Positions 38,945 through 43,579 of a stretch of DNA of 64,000 bases are shown piece by piece. The position numbers and the translations under genes are program-made. Source of the stretch: Propionispora vibrioides (lineage in GTDB: Bacteria; Bacillota; Negativicutes; Propionisporales; Propionisporaceae); the NCBI RefSeq assembly GCF_900110485.1, contig NZ_FODY01000004.1:62001-126000 (forward strand). Reading direction: 5' to 3'. The first letter of the stretch is position 1; each line of letters begins with the position of its first letter. The notes under the pieces were generated by a model, which saw nothing but the letters and a program-made list of their open reading frames with translations, did not search any database and was not told where the DNA came from.

Positions 38945-38978
38945 ATTAATAAACCCGGCATGTAAAAACATGCCGGGT
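38945..38978 (-). terminator. terminator of the cold-shock gene
   Basis: ACCCGGCATG (38953) and CATGCCGGGT (38969) form a perfect 10-bp stem with a TAAAAA loop. The minus strand continues TTATTAATTTTT. It lies 17 bases past the stop at 38996. Confidence 0.88.
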
Positions 38979-38995
38979 ATTGGTTAACAAGAAAA

Positions 38996-39193
38996 TTATG
39001 CTTTAAGAACGTTAGCCGCTTGAGGTCCGCGAGCTCCGTCTACAATATCAAACTCAACTTGTTGACCTTCGGCCAAGGTTTTAAAGCCCTGGTCTTGAAT
39101 AGCAGAAAAATGAACGAAAACGTCGCCGCCATCTTCTCTTTCGATGAAGCCATAGCCTTTTTCTGCACTAAACCATTTAACTTTACCAATCAT
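38996..39193 (-). CDS. cold-shock protein, CspA family
   Basis: A 65-residue single cold-shock domain protein that binds single-stranded RNA and DNA. RNP1 is KGYGFIERE and RNP2 is VFVHFSAI, with the usual [14 protein letters not shown] start and GPQAANV end. AGGAGGAG precedes the ATG. It has a perfect-consensus promoter and its own terminator, so it is a strongly expressed single gene. Such genes often carry regulatory 5-prime leaders, but this one is only about 45 bases. Confidence 0.97.
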
Positions 39194-39243
39194 TGTGAAA
39201 CTCCTCCTAAAATAAACTACAGGTCTCTTTGACCACAGGATGA

Positions 39244-39272
39244 ATTATAACATAGATGGTTATATCTGTCAA
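39244..39272 (-). promoter_or_regulatory. consensus promoter of the cold-shock gene
   Basis: The minus strand reads TTGACA (39267-39272), a 17-base spacer, TATAAT (39244-39249): both hexamers are exact sigma-A consensus. Confidence 0.92.
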
Positions 39273-39307
39273 TAAGCTAGGCCAATAAGGCCAATTTCTT
39301 TCAGAAA

Positions 39308-40030
39308 TTACAAAATCTTCGATAAAAAGGTTTTAGTACGCTCTTCCTTAGCACCGTTAAAAAAGGCCTCCGGCGTGCCTTCTTCCACAATCCGGCCTTC
39401 GTCCATGAAGATAACCCGGTCACCGACTTCACGGGCAAAGCCCATTTCATGGGTAACCACCACCATAGTCATTCCCTCACGGGCCAGCGCCTTCATAACG
39501 TCCAGCACCTCATTGATCATTTCCGGATCCAGCGCCGAGGTCGGCTCGTCGAATAGCATGACCTTCGGGCGCATGGCCAGCGCTCGGGCAATCGCCACCC
39601 GCTGCTGCTGTCCGCCGGAAAGCTGCTCCGGATAGGCATCGGCTTTGTCCGCCAGACCCACTTTAACCAAGAGATCCAGCGCAATTTGCCGGGCATCTTC
39701 TTTGGCCGTCTTACGTACCTTAACCGGCGCCAGCATAATATTTTCCAACACCGTCATATGGGGAAACAGGTTGAAGCGCTGAAACACCATGCCCACTTCT
39801 TCCCGCACCTTGTTGATGTTAGCCTCATTGGTCAAAGGGATTTTATCCACGATAATTTCGCCTTCCGTAGGCTGTTCCAAATAATTAATGCAGCGCAGCA
39901 GCGTGCTTTTACCGGAACCGCTGGGTCCGATAATCACAACCACTTCCCGTTCTTTTACGTGGGCGTCAATGCCCTTTAAAACGTGAAGCTTGCCGAATTT
40001 TTTATGCACCTGTTTAATGTTTATCATCAA
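39308..40030 (-). CDS. polar amino acid ABC transporter ATP-binding protein (GlnQ-like)
   Basis: The cytoplasmic ATPase of a polar amino acid importer, 240 residues. Walker [11 protein letters not shown]-loop [17 protein letters not shown], signature [35 protein letters not shown]-loop [11 protein letters not shown], the GlnQ/HisP family profile. Its start overlaps the permease gene by 17 bases. Works with the permease at 40014 and the binding protein(s) at 40854 and 41824. The amino acid is not predictable with certainty; glutamine, cystine or similar. Confidence 0.95.
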
Positions 40031-40688
40031 TCTTATACCTCCGCTCCAGATAATCCACCAGGCGGGAAATCGTCAGGGTCATAATTAAATAAATAAACGC
40101 CACTGTCAGCCAAATCTCAAACGAACCGTACGTGCGGGCAATAATCAGCTGGCCGCGGCGGGTTAATTCTTCAAAGCCGATTACGGAGACCAGGGAGGAG
40201 TCTTTCAGCATGGCAATAAACTCGTTGCCCAACGGCGGAATAATGCGCTTAAAAGCCTGCGGCAGGATAATGTAACGCATCGTCTGACCCCAGGTCATGC
40301 CCAGCGAGCGACCGGCTTCCATCTGTCCACGGTCGATCGACTGAATACCGGCCCGGAATATTTCCGCCACATAGGCCCCGCTGTTGATACTACAGGCCGT
40401 TATCGCCGCAACAAACGGGTCAATCCGCTGCCCTGCCACGATAGGCAGTGCAAAATAAATAATAAAAATCTGAACCAGTAACGGCGTTCCTCTGATAAAG
40501 TCAACATAAATCAAGGACAACGTCTTGACCGCCCAAATTTTCGACAGACGGGCCATGCCGACAAACATCCCGATGAAAAAACCAAAGCCGACACTGAGCA
40601 GGCTGATCTGCAGCGTTACGCCAGCCCCTAGCAACAGCAGCGGAAAGGAGTTTACCACCAAATTAAAATCAAAATTCATGTTCTCCAC
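40014..40688 (-). CDS. polar amino acid ABC transporter permease (GlnP/HisM-like)
   Basis: A 224-residue inner membrane permease of the His/Glu/Gln/Arg family with about five helices. The EAA loop ([62 protein letters not shown]) is the diagnostic feature. Only one permease gene is present, so it probably acts as a homodimer. It follows the binding-protein gene after a terminator, which should make it less abundant than the binding protein. Confidence 0.95.
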
Positions 40689-40792
40689 CCTTGCTCATCA
40701 ATAATAAAAGTCCGTACTTTATGTACATTCTGCAATAAATTATATACATGTCCGTCAAAATGTGTCAATGCTTTTCTGTCCCTAAAACGCGC

Positions 40793-40823
40793 AAAAAGGC
40801 GCAATGGAAATAATTGCGCCTTT
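40793..40823 (-). terminator. terminator between binding-protein and permease genes
   Basis: AAAGGCGCAAT (40795) and ATTGCGCCTTT (40813) form an 11-bp stem, followed on the minus strand by TT and GCGCG. It separates the binding-protein gene from the downstream permease/ATPase pair and probably allows partial read-through. Confidence 0.75.
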
Positions 40824-40853
40824 GCAATAAACAGCTCGTATTTTTTTCAATGA

Positions 40854-41633
40854 TTACGGTTTTTTACCAAACCATTTTTCATAAATTTTGTCATACTCGC
40901 CATTCTGTTTCAGTTCATCCAACGCTTTGTTGATCTTATCAGCAAGCTCGGTGTTTTTCTTGGACATGGCTATACCATAATCCTCGGCAGTCAGCGGTTC
41001 ACCGACCTGTTGGGCATCCTTGCTGCCGGTTTCTTTCATGAAATAATCATTGACCGGTTTATCATTGATCACAGCATCCACACCGCCGGCTTTTAATTCC
41101 ATAAACGCTTCGGGGGGGGTATTGAATTCACGAACCTGCGCATTTTTTATCTTCTTGGCTTCTTCCGCCCCGGTCGTACCGATCTGAGCGCCAATCTTCT
41201 TACCTTCCAGGTCACCAAAGCCTTTAATTGTATTATTGCCTGTTTTAACCACAACGGTCAAACCGGATTTGTAATACGGTTTGGAGAAATTCACCTTTTG
41301 AGCCCGTTCCTCGGTGATCGTCATACCGGAAACAGCCACGTCGATATTGCCTGCCTCCAAAGCCGGAATCAAACCGTCAAAGCCCATGCTCTGAATTTCC
41401 ACTTCCGCACCCATTTGTTTGCCGATCGCTCTGATCAGGTCCATATCGAAACCTACATAGTCCTTGCTCTTTTCATCCTGAAACTCAAACGGTGCAAAAC
41501 TTGGCTCCGTTCCCACTTTTAAGACAGTAGCCTTGCCTTCGTTGGCCGCCGGCTTCTGTCCGCCGCAGCCAGCGAGACCGAACAGCGCCACCAAAGCAGC
41601 CACGACTAAATATACAATTGTTTTTTTAGACAC
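40854..41633 (-). CDS. amino acid ABC transporter substrate-binding lipoprotein 1
   Basis: A 259-residue family 3 solute-binding protein. Signal with lipobox FGLAGC (Cys at residue 23), then the type II periplasmic-binding fold: LKVGTEPSFAPFEFQD, VGFDMDLIRAIGKQMG, FDGLIPALEAGNIDVAVSGMTITEERAQKVNFSKPYY and the closing DKINKALDELKQNGEYDKIYEKWFG. As a lipoprotein it sits on the outer face of the inner membrane. It is a close paralogue of the product of 41824-42606. Confidence 0.95.
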   Translation of the reverse strand: MSKKTIVYLVVAALVALFGLAGCGGQKPAANEGKATVLKVGTEPSFAPFEFQDEKSKDYVGFDMDLIRAIGKQMGAEVEIQSMGFDGLIPALEAGNIDVAVSGMTITEERAQKVNFSKPYYKSGLTVVVKTGNNTIKGFGDLEGKKIGAQIGTTGAEEAKKIKNAQVREFNTPPEAFMELKAGGVDAVINDKPVNDYFMKETGSKDAQQVGEPLTAEDYGIAMSKKNTELADKINKALDELKQNGEYDKIYEKWFGKKP

Positions 41634-41689
41634 ATTGGTCCCTCCCGTTTCAATATTATGTAGAATTAAACGCTCACCACATAGTTATA

Positions 41690-41718
41690 ATTATACAGGT
41701 TAATGTATATTTAGGCAA
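41690..41718 (-). promoter_or_regulatory. promoter of substrate-binding protein gene 1
   Basis: TTGCCT (41713-41718), 17 bases, TATAAT (41690-41695) on the minus strand, about 57 bases before the ATG. Confidence 0.7.
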
Positions 41719-41784
41719 GACTTTTCCCGCAAAAAGACGCTACTTTTCTCTGTAGAATGGACTTTTCCTTTTTTCTCCTTTAAT

Positions 41785-41812
41785 TAAAAAAAGCCCGGCA
41801 CGTAGCCGGGCT
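41785..41812 (-). terminator. terminator of substrate-binding protein gene 2
   Basis: AGCCCGGC (41792) and GCCGGGCT (41805) form an 8-bp GC-rich stem with a 5-nt loop followed on the minus strand by seven T; 12 bases past the stop at 41824. Confidence 0.9.
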
Positions 41813-41823
41813 CTCTCGAAATA

Positions 41824-42606
41824 TTAGGATTTTGTACCAAACCATTTTTGATAGATTTTATCAAACTCGCCGTTTTTCTTGAGTTCATCAATAGCCTTAT
41901 TGATTTTTTCAGCCAATTCGGTGTTCTTCTTGGCCACGGCAATGCCATAGTCTTCCGAAGTCAGTGGATCACCCACTTGTTTGGCGTCTTTACCGCCGGC
42001 TTCCTTGATGTAATAGTCATTAACCGGCCGGTCATTGATTACGGCATCTACACCGCCGGCTTTCAATTCCATGAACGCTTCAGGCGCCGTATTAAATTCG
42101 CGGATCTGAGCGTCTTTTACCTTCTTAGCTTCGTCAGCACCGGTCGTACCGATTTGTACGGCAATCTTCTTGCCTTCCAGATCTTTAAAGCCTTTGATAG
42201 CACTGTTGTCACTCTTTACAACAATCGTCAACCCTGATTTATAATAGGGTTTGCTGAAATTCACCTTCTGGGCGCGTTCTTCCGTAATGGTCATGGCGGA
42301 AATAGCGGCATCAATATTGCCTGCTTCCAAGGCCGGAATCAAACCGTCAAAGTTCATGCTCTGCACTTCTACCTTGGCTCCAATCTGTTTGCCAATAGCC
42401 TGGATTAATTCCATGTCAAAGCCGACATATTCCTTGCTCTTTTCATCCTGAAACTCAAATGGTGCGTAAGCAGTATCGGAGCCTACCTTTAACACGGTTT
42501 GCTTAGCCGGTTCCGCCGGCTTCTGGCCGCCACAGCCCGCAAGCCCTAAGGCCAGTACGAACATTCCTAACATCAAACCTGCAATCAATTTCTTCGACAA
42601 ATCCAT
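41824..42606 (-). CDS. amino acid ABC transporter substrate-binding lipoprotein 2
   Basis: A 260-residue lipoprotein (lipobox LGLAGC) with the same family 3 binding fold as gene 1. The two agree over nearly the whole mature part, for example FDGLIPALEAGNID, MTITEERAQKVNFSKPYYKSGLT and GFKDLEGKKI/GFGDLEGKKI, so this is a tandem duplication. It has its own promoter and terminator, unlike a simple operon. It may deliver a related amino acid to the same permease or give condition-specific affinity. Confidence 0.95.
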   Translation of the reverse strand: MDLSKKLIAGLMLGMFVLALGLAGCGGQKPAEPAKQTVLKVGSDTAYAPFEFQDEKSKEYVGFDMELIQAIGKQIGAKVEVQSMNFDGLIPALEAGNIDAAISAMTITEERAQKVNFSKPYYKSGLTIVVKSDNSAIKGFKDLEGKKIAVQIGTTGADEAKKVKDAQIREFNTAPEAFMELKAGGVDAVINDRPVNDYYIKEAGGKDAKQVGDPLTSEDYGIAVAKKNTELAEKINKAIDELKKNGEFDKIYQKWFGTKS

Positions 42607-42880: not shown

Positions 42881-42906
42881 AAAAAGCCCGGCTGCTATAG
42901 CCGGGC
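42881..42906 (-). terminator. terminator of the zinc-ribbon gene
   Basis: GCCCGGCT (42886) and AGCCGGGC (42899) form an 8-bp stem with a 5-nt loop followed by five T on the minus strand; 14 bases past the stop at 42921. Confidence 0.88.
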
Positions 42907-42920
42907 GTAATGTCGTTAGA

Positions 42921-43217
42921 TTAATATGATTTCTTTGCGTTAAAGCAATCGCGGCAGTAAATAGGACGATCATTGCGAGGTTTAAACGGTACTTTTGTAG
43001 TTACACCGCATTCTGCACATACGGCTTCATGCATTTCCCGTTGAGCTCCTTGGCTTTCGCCGCCTTCGCGGCTTCTTTTCTTCGCATCGCGGCAATCGCG
43101 GCAACGCGCCGGTTCATTTTCAAACCCTTTTTCTGCATAAAACTCTTGTTCACCGGTCGTAAAGATAAAGTCACACCCACAGTCCTTGCATTTTAGAGTT
43201 TTGTCCTGGAACGCCAT
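42921..43217 (-). CDS. zinc-ribbon protein with four CxxC motifs
   Basis: A 98-residue basic protein with CKDCGC, CRDCRDAKKRS, CAECG and CRDCFNAKK, forming two zinc sites in a pseudo-repeat. This is the small 'zinc-ribbon domain containing' (zf-trcl type) family common in Firmicutes; no activity is known, nucleic acid binding is likely given the charge. Start 43217 has AGGGGA 8 bases upstream; a longer reading to 43316 runs into the structured RNA region and is rejected. Lies 58 bases downstream of the ncRNA candidate. Confidence 0.85.
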   Translation of the reverse strand: MAFQDKTLKCKDCGCDFIFTTGEQEFYAEKGFENEPARCRDCRDAKKRSREGGESQGAQREMHEAVCAECGVTTKVPFKPRNDRPIYCRDCFNAKKSY

Positions 43218-43274
43218 TAGAGATATCCCCTCACCCTTTTGTTTTTTAAAGCCGCACACCTTATGCAGGCTCTG

Positions 43275-43544
43275 TAAAAAGCTCTTGCTTAGCCGACCTG
43301 GTCTTTGACCCCACACTCGCCTGCCGGAAGGTTCGCTACTAGGAATTCAATCCCCTCACTACTACTCCTCTCGGATAAAGCATGAAACGGTGAGAGTGAG
43401 TACTCACCTGCCTCCCAGCTTTCATCCGGCAGGTCTTACCCCTAAGCCGCACCATGCTCAGAGCTTATTTAAACTCCTTACGTGGATCGTTTCGCCTGCG
43501 ACTGGCATCGACTTTCAACCACAGACCTAAGCAAGAGATCTTTA
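43275..43544 (-). ncRNA. structured RNA candidate of ~270 nt (family unknown)
   Basis: The interval 43218-43617 has no credible gene but shows the layout of a structured RNA on the minus strand. There is a good promoter at 43551-43579. The two ends pair (CTAAGCAAGAG at 43527 with CTCTTGCTTAG at 43282, 11 of 11), and the 3-prime arm is followed by TTTTT. Inside, CCTGCCGG pairs with CCGGCAGG, and ATGAAA with TTTCAT around a GGTGAG/CTCACC hairpin; an alternative ACCTGCC/GGCAGGT helix competes. It could be a stand-alone RNA or the leader of the zinc-ribbon gene. I found no SRP, RNase P, tmRNA or T-box signature. The raiA-motif and 6S families should be tested first. Confidence 0.6.
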
Positions 43545-43550
43545 CCTACG

Positions 43551-43579
43551 ATTATAGATTCCATAGCGCAAAAAAGCAA
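43551..43579 (-). promoter_or_regulatory. promoter of the structured RNA
   Basis: TTGCTT (43574-43579), a 17-base spacer and TATAAT (43551-43556) on the minus strand. Transcription would begin near 43544, just before the outer stem of the RNA. Confidence 0.8.

Follow-up and report, generated by a model that had tools for sequence, protein, structure and literature searches.

The locus examined here raises the question of which RNA is encoded at positions 43275-43544 of the window (the whole 64,000-nt stretch of Propionispora vibrioides DNA that was analysed), and of how this RNA is related to the small zinc-finger gene (zf) lying directly behind it. A preliminary description had left three readings side by side: a raiA-type RNA, a 6S-type RNA or a wholly new class tied to the downstream zinc-ribbon gene. 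The raiA/ModT RNAs are among the most conserved bacterial RNAs of unexplained biochemical role, and their published synteny has been judged uninformative. The interest of the locus lies in the constant zf partner and in a natural minimal form of the RNA, rather than in the RNA itself.

Identification and Structure of the RNA

The RNA was identified by cmscan as raiA (RF03072), with a match over model positions 1-209 at 43535-43284 on the minus strand (195.1 bits, GA 101.3, E 5e-50). This full-length match, far over the cut-off, bears out the raiA-type reading and removes that of a wholly new class; the identity is near certain, and the RNA is an ordinary member of the known raiA/ModT class. 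The conserved raiA 5' motif was matched once in the window against zero expected, and the conserved motifs GGUCUGUGGUUGAAAGUCGAUGCC and GGGGUCAAAGACCAGGUC of raiA/ModT are both present. The genome (4.4 Mb, 58 contigs) contains the RNA once, and the extra length of the RNA relative to the model comes from 41 nt inserted into a single variable loop; among relatives, the length ranges from 202 to 269 nt. The 6S-type reading fell away, with no RF00013 match in the window, and neither SRP nor any other Rfam family reached its cut-off at the locus. A 6S RNA, or a class unrelated to raiA, would have in its favour size and closed ends only; set against the raiA match, its probability is negligible. 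A phage origin was also rejected, as exact matching of the raiA 5' motif to 2.9 million viral contigs found nothing, and the plasmid matches for the motif were two chromosome-sized records.

The 11-bp pairing between the two ends seen earlier proved exact and corresponds to the closing helix P1 (Table 1). Of the inner helices proposed with it, CCTGCCGG/CCGGCAGG is among the helices that the family model contains, while ATGAAA/TTTCAT falls in the 41-nt insert. Comparison of 29 diverse homologues over P1, pk-1, P5 and the inner CCUGCC/GGCAGG helix showed that 91.1% of cells were paired, with two-sided changes in 21 of the 36 pairs tested. Cells with two-sided changes numbered 178, against 57.6 in shuffles and 25-50 in slid controls, in which the partners were moved by 1-3 columns; the corresponding covariation scores were 0.465, 0.173 and 0.039-0.105. 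Covariation over the structure is strong. The fold z-score was -3.29 on the minus strand, a value that none of 200 shuffles equalled, and -2.50 on the plus strand. Cryo-EM has established the raiA/ModT fold (PMC11751092, PMC12286853, and another study that these cite), and in these structures the RNA folds without protein (PMC11751092, PMC12286853).

The RNA, promoter, P1 and U5 tract all lie on the minus strand. The sigma-A promoter claimed in the preliminary description was recovered as TTGCTT-17-TATAAT (43579-43551), with a predicted transcription start near 43544, and the 5' end of the mature RNA likely lies at about this position, beyond the model match. The promoter is conserved: 102 of 113 homologous loci have an exact TATAAT just 5' of P1, and promoter matches of at least 9/12 were found in 91% of homologous loci versus 10% of shuffles. 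A generic promoter scan with a TTGACA threshold missed the promoter in the window. The run of T reported after the 3' arm is the U5 tract, separated from P1 by a single C; it could be a site of partial termination or 3'-end formation, and it is not kept in every lineage.

Table 1. Features of the raiA-zf locus, in window coordinates.
Feature	Position	Strand	Basis
-35 hexamer TTGCTT	43574..43579	-	Sequence; TTGC-type -35 common in homologous loci
-10 hexamer TATAAT, 17-nt spacer	43551..43556	-	Sequence; conserved before P1
P1 closing helix, 5' arm CTCTTGCTTAG	43527..43537	-	Sequence; P1 covaries across 29 sequences
raiA RNA (RF03072), full length, 41-nt insert	43284..43535	-	cmscan and covariation
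P1 closing helix, 3' arm CTAAGCAAGAG	43282..43292	-	Sequence; P1 covariation
U5 tract just past P1	43276..43280	-	Sequence
66-nt gap from raiA RNA to zf ATG: Shine-Dalgarno, weak hairpin, no intrinsic terminator	43218..43283	-	Scan
zf gene, 98 aa, two treble-clef zinc-binding domains (CxxC..CxxC twice)	42921..43217	-	PF13451, PF23477, TIGR04272
Intrinsic terminator GCCCGGCTATAGCAGCCGGGC TTTTT, 3' of zf	42886..42906	-	Scan; 8 pairs, 7 G-C

The zf Gene and Its Surroundings

The zf protein matched PF13451 (4.7e-23), PF23477 (1.7e-20) and TIGR04272; with both Pfam domains over the cut-off and its CxxC pairs, it belongs to the zf_Tbcl/zf_Tbcl_2 proteins; eight of its cysteines (C10, C13, C39, C42, C67, C70, C88 and C91) are invariant. 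Translation starts at the conserved ATG at 43217, which has its own AGGGG Shine-Dalgarno sequence. The earlier statement that no protein frame explains the element needs one qualification: an open reading frame at 43316-42921 (minus strand) does enter the 3' end of the RNA. This overlap arises only through an upstream GTG, and a protein-coding origin of the feature was rejected. A structure model of the protein was poor from the single sequence and better from a 54-row alignment (pLDDT 84). Searches of the PDB gave no significant relative by sequence and no match at E <= 0.001 by fold.

The weak hairpin in the gap between the RNA and zf lacks a U-run behind it, and, judged from their arrangement, promoter, raiA RNA, zf and terminator would form one compact unit. 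The neighbours of the RNA in the window are an oxidoreductase gene and zf, and neither comFC nor raiA/HPF. Further along the same strand, at 39308-42606, a pair of family-3 solute-binding protein genes, paralogous and side by side, precedes genes for ABC permease and ATPase. A match to the cspA thermoregulator (RF01766) at 38949-39286 (minus strand; 78.8 against a cut-off of 78) spans a cold-shock-like protein gene (39193-38996), and coding similarity may account for it.

Distribution of the RNA-zf Pair

Conservation in relatives was found along with the strong covariation, as the preliminary description had proposed to check: raiA RNA is present in 50 of the 60 genomes of the class (Negativicutes). 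PF13451 positions were compared with raiA positions and the loci were inspected, which showed zf next on the same strand in 36 of these 50 genomes, a count that includes one locus at a contig end with the zf start visible (L027) and one with Ns inside the RNA (L126). The suggested tie to the downstream zinc-ribbon gene is thus conserved across genomes, and the pair was found in 18 of 22 raiA-bearing families, the exceptions being f4, f15, f21 and f25. The spacing from raiA to zf is mostly about 30-50 nt, and usually about 35-50 nt in the Negativicutes pairs, and contains just a Shine-Dalgarno sequence. Among the Negativicutes loci, comFC lies within 1.5 kb upstream of raiA in three and HPF within 1.5 kb downstream in two; both are rare there, and the other neighbours vary.

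In a phylum sample around G060, raiA matches were found in 20 of 199 genomes, a lower bound, as the RNA search scored few candidates per genome. One of these (G140) has its raiA in the same place and of the same length as an already-counted Negativicute (G006) and was set aside. The other 14 full-length loci comprised eight with zf next and three with the order comFC-RNA-HPF, while all five short loci had zf next. A search started from the zf protein sequence alone gave at least 577 relatives, and among the 80 best the majority had raiA directly upstream in the same orientation; these loci belong to Negativicutes and several lineages of Clostridia, in a set (GTDB genomes) that favours sequences close to the query. 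In Clostridia sampled independently from the zf side, only 8 of 40 loci had raiA upstream. The literature covered by the analysis names comFC and raiA as neighbours and does not mention zf; the link may be on record elsewhere.

Terminators Behind the RNA

A terminator-like hairpin within 100 nt past P1 was detected in 14 of 20 raiA RNAs that are not paired with zf but in only 2 of 43 paired ones, both of which fall inside the zf ORF. In shuffles, the proportion was 6% for both groups alike, so that the paired RNAs stand at chance level. As terminators follow most unpaired but hardly any paired raiA RNAs, read-through from raiA into zf is supported, and on this sequence evidence the two are likely co-transcribed.

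Reduced Forms of the RNA

A much shorter form, which we call mini-raiA, was first met in the phylum sample as five matches of 113-120 nt scoring below the Rfam cut-off. It was then traced by blastn to 20 of 22 genomes of one order (that of G107), at 110-121 nt and likewise under the cut-off (loci L152-L173 and L194-L202). Mini-raiA retains the promoter (TTGC..TATAAT), P1, the GGUCUGUGGUUGAAAGUCGAUGCC segment, P3 and one hairpin, likely also pk-1, as GCCGUA/UAYGCGGC or GCCGC/GCGGC, whereas the stretch that joins the pk-loop to the 3' strand of P1 is missing. In all 19 genomes with complete loci, zf lies 32-41 nt downstream, the twentieth (L167) being cut by a contig end. Mini-raiA is probably a reduction, since a full raiA occupies the same place in three other genomes of its class (L203, L204 and L205). 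As the core helices of mini-raiA are nearly invariant in the single order sampled, the case for the core is made by identity with full raiA rather than by covariation.

Other shortened forms were observed. In one genome, an internal deletion leaves a raiA of 105 nt (L127:4611-4507, minus strand) that is still followed by zf; a collapse in the assembly may explain it. Neither this locus nor L126 was used as a mini form, and both are labelled 'mini' in the zf tree. The leaders of L077 and L092 show, about 150 nt before zf, a P1-like CTTGTTCAG/CTGAACAAG pair and GCCGCGGGC but no covariance-model match. The zf tree groups this type with L150, which has a 183-nt raiA, and the leader is possibly a still more reduced raiA.

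Evolution of the zf Subfamily and Its Leaders

In a tree of 151 zf proteins, a subfamily of 130 rows was separated from 21 unlinked paralogues with support 100/96, the alignment being short and the supports rough. Every zf protein linked to raiA or mini-raiA sits in the 130-row subfamily. This subfamily also contains 29 rows without raiA (f11, Selenomonadaceae, Desulfosporosinus, some Oscillospiraceae and others), which either lost the RNA or never had it. In f11 (G013, G030, G039, G046, G051 and G056), no sampled member has raiA, and the five zf copies inspected are of the linked type. Conversely, the RNA is present but no zf is linked to it in f4, f15, f21 and f25; the zf copies inspected in f15 are of the unlinked type, and PF13451 was not found in f25. 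As raiA RNA and zf can separate, the zf protein is not an obligate RNP component. Judged from the tree, the pair seems to be ancestral and to have been lost several times.

A TTGC..TATAAT-like promoter and a leader of 60-120 nt are still present at many zf genes that lack raiA. In Clostridia, some of these leaders, directly before zf on the same strand, are tRNA-like: the Rfam tRNA model matched at L218, L220, L228, L238, L241, L244, L245 and L110 (3906-3974) with 24-33 bits (E 0.0015-0.48 over 4227 families), and L217 and L222 were judged by eye only. ARAGORN called no tRNA at these leaders. Their acceptor stems show, by eye, two-sided changes (GCCC/GGGC, GUCC/GGAC, CUCUC/GAGAG), and in some loci (e.g., L244) a genuine tRNA-Gly(CCC) gene precedes the leader. 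In L209, L211, L215, L216, L226 and L246, full raiA and zf are separated by an additional element of about 110 nt; it carries AAAUCCC, complementary to GGGAUUU at the Shine-Dalgarno sequence, and may be a translation-control leader. Regulation of zf by its own leader is conceivable, and the tRNA-like and 110-nt leaders are leads in this direction.

Possible Functions of the Pair

The reading that we lean towards is that the window encodes a raiA RNA that acts in trans and shares its transcript with a zinc-finger gene, whose protein is its probable functional partner, a role that we infer. The sigma-A promoter would drive a two-member transcription unit of raiA RNA, Shine-Dalgarno sequence, zf and terminator. 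The RNA would fold into a compact P1-P8 structure with both ends sealed in P1 and, by homology with ModT, would act in trans as an abundant stable RNA in P. vibrioides. A fraction of transcripts would cross the 66-nt gap, allowing the small double zinc-finger protein to be made; in paired loci, a read-through like that of the long isoform of ModT would enter zf. The levels of RNA and protein could then rise and fall together through the shared transcript. The conserved pairing is best explained if the protein works with the RNA, be it by binding it, as a partner within an RNP, or by serving the same growth-transition process. Within this hypothesis of partnership, the protein probably contacts the raiA RNA. 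Weighing against a partner role are the families in which RNA and zf occur apart and the cryo-EM structures, in which the RNA folds by itself, and the fold search yielded no lead to RNA binding. The tight, terminator-free pairing with one zf subfamily across many families offers a specific candidate protein, and the half-size mini-raiA that keeps the pairing offers a natural minimal RNA. The broader proposal, that zf is the missing partner of the raiA class (or is cis-controlled) and that mini-raiA, with P1, P3, pk-1 and one hairpin, is the minimal core, is put forward tentatively and is rather doubtful.

The same gene order could have arisen with no joint function, if raiA were purely trans-acting as in C. 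difficile and zf merely exploited its strong promoter, the order persisting because it is inherited and tightly spaced. ModT complements in trans (PMC11706538), RNA and zf part in several families, and many raiA-less zf genes keep a similar promoter and a short leader. However, the pair outlives its reshuffled other neighbours across Negativicutes and Clostridia, and persists though mini-raiA has lost about half of the RNA; we see a passenger gene of this kind as possible but unlikely. Alternatively, raiA could chiefly be a leader, riboswitch-like or protein-binding and autoregulatory, that controls zf. Rfam labels RF03072 'Cis-reg; riboswitch', the spacing to the start codon is 66 nt (elsewhere 30-50 nt) with no terminator, and mini-raiA occurs only in leader position; raiA-less zf genes often have other structured leaders, tRNA-like ones included, and one group has a Shine-Dalgarno-complementary sequence between raiA and zf. 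Against such control in cis stand the terminators that end 14 of 20 unpaired raiA RNAs and the window itself, where no alternative pairing with the Shine-Dalgarno sequence is evident, which makes it improbable as the main role.

Comparison with Known Systems

Ribosomal-protein leader RNAs are lineage-specific structured leaders before small-protein genes, as raiA is before zf. Unlike in those systems, the zf protein is not known to bind RNA; raiA is also found free-standing, and the likeness is that of a leader without mimicry of a known target. OLE RNA with OapA is likewise a large structured bacterial RNA with a protein partner (PMC11706538), binding of raiA by zf being putative, although the likeness of OLE to raiA is not one of sequence or structure.

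The closest system is raiA/ModT itself, with which the window RNA shares the core motifs, P1, pk-1, the CCUGCC/GGCAGG helix, the sigma-A promoter, the intergenic position and the single copy, differing in the insert of its variable loop and in being followed by zf without a terminator. ModT has been described as abundant, stable and trans-acting, and tied to growth transition and sporulation, as reported for clostridia; besides a short isoform, a longer one arises by reading on to a downstream terminator (PMC11706538). Downstream of C. difficile ModT lies a PTS antiterminator gene (PMC11706538), whereas zf takes this place in the window. The top neighbours published for raiA, as cited in PMC11706538, are comFC (74%) and HPF (66%). 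These neighbours are common without being obligatory, and the assignment of the window RNA to raiA/ModT does not depend on them. The order comFC-raiA RNA-HPF was recovered in the Clostridia loci L137, L139 and L149 and in the actinomycete L247, so the locus method can detect the published synteny. In Negativicutes, by contrast, this order is rare and the RNA-zf pair dominates.
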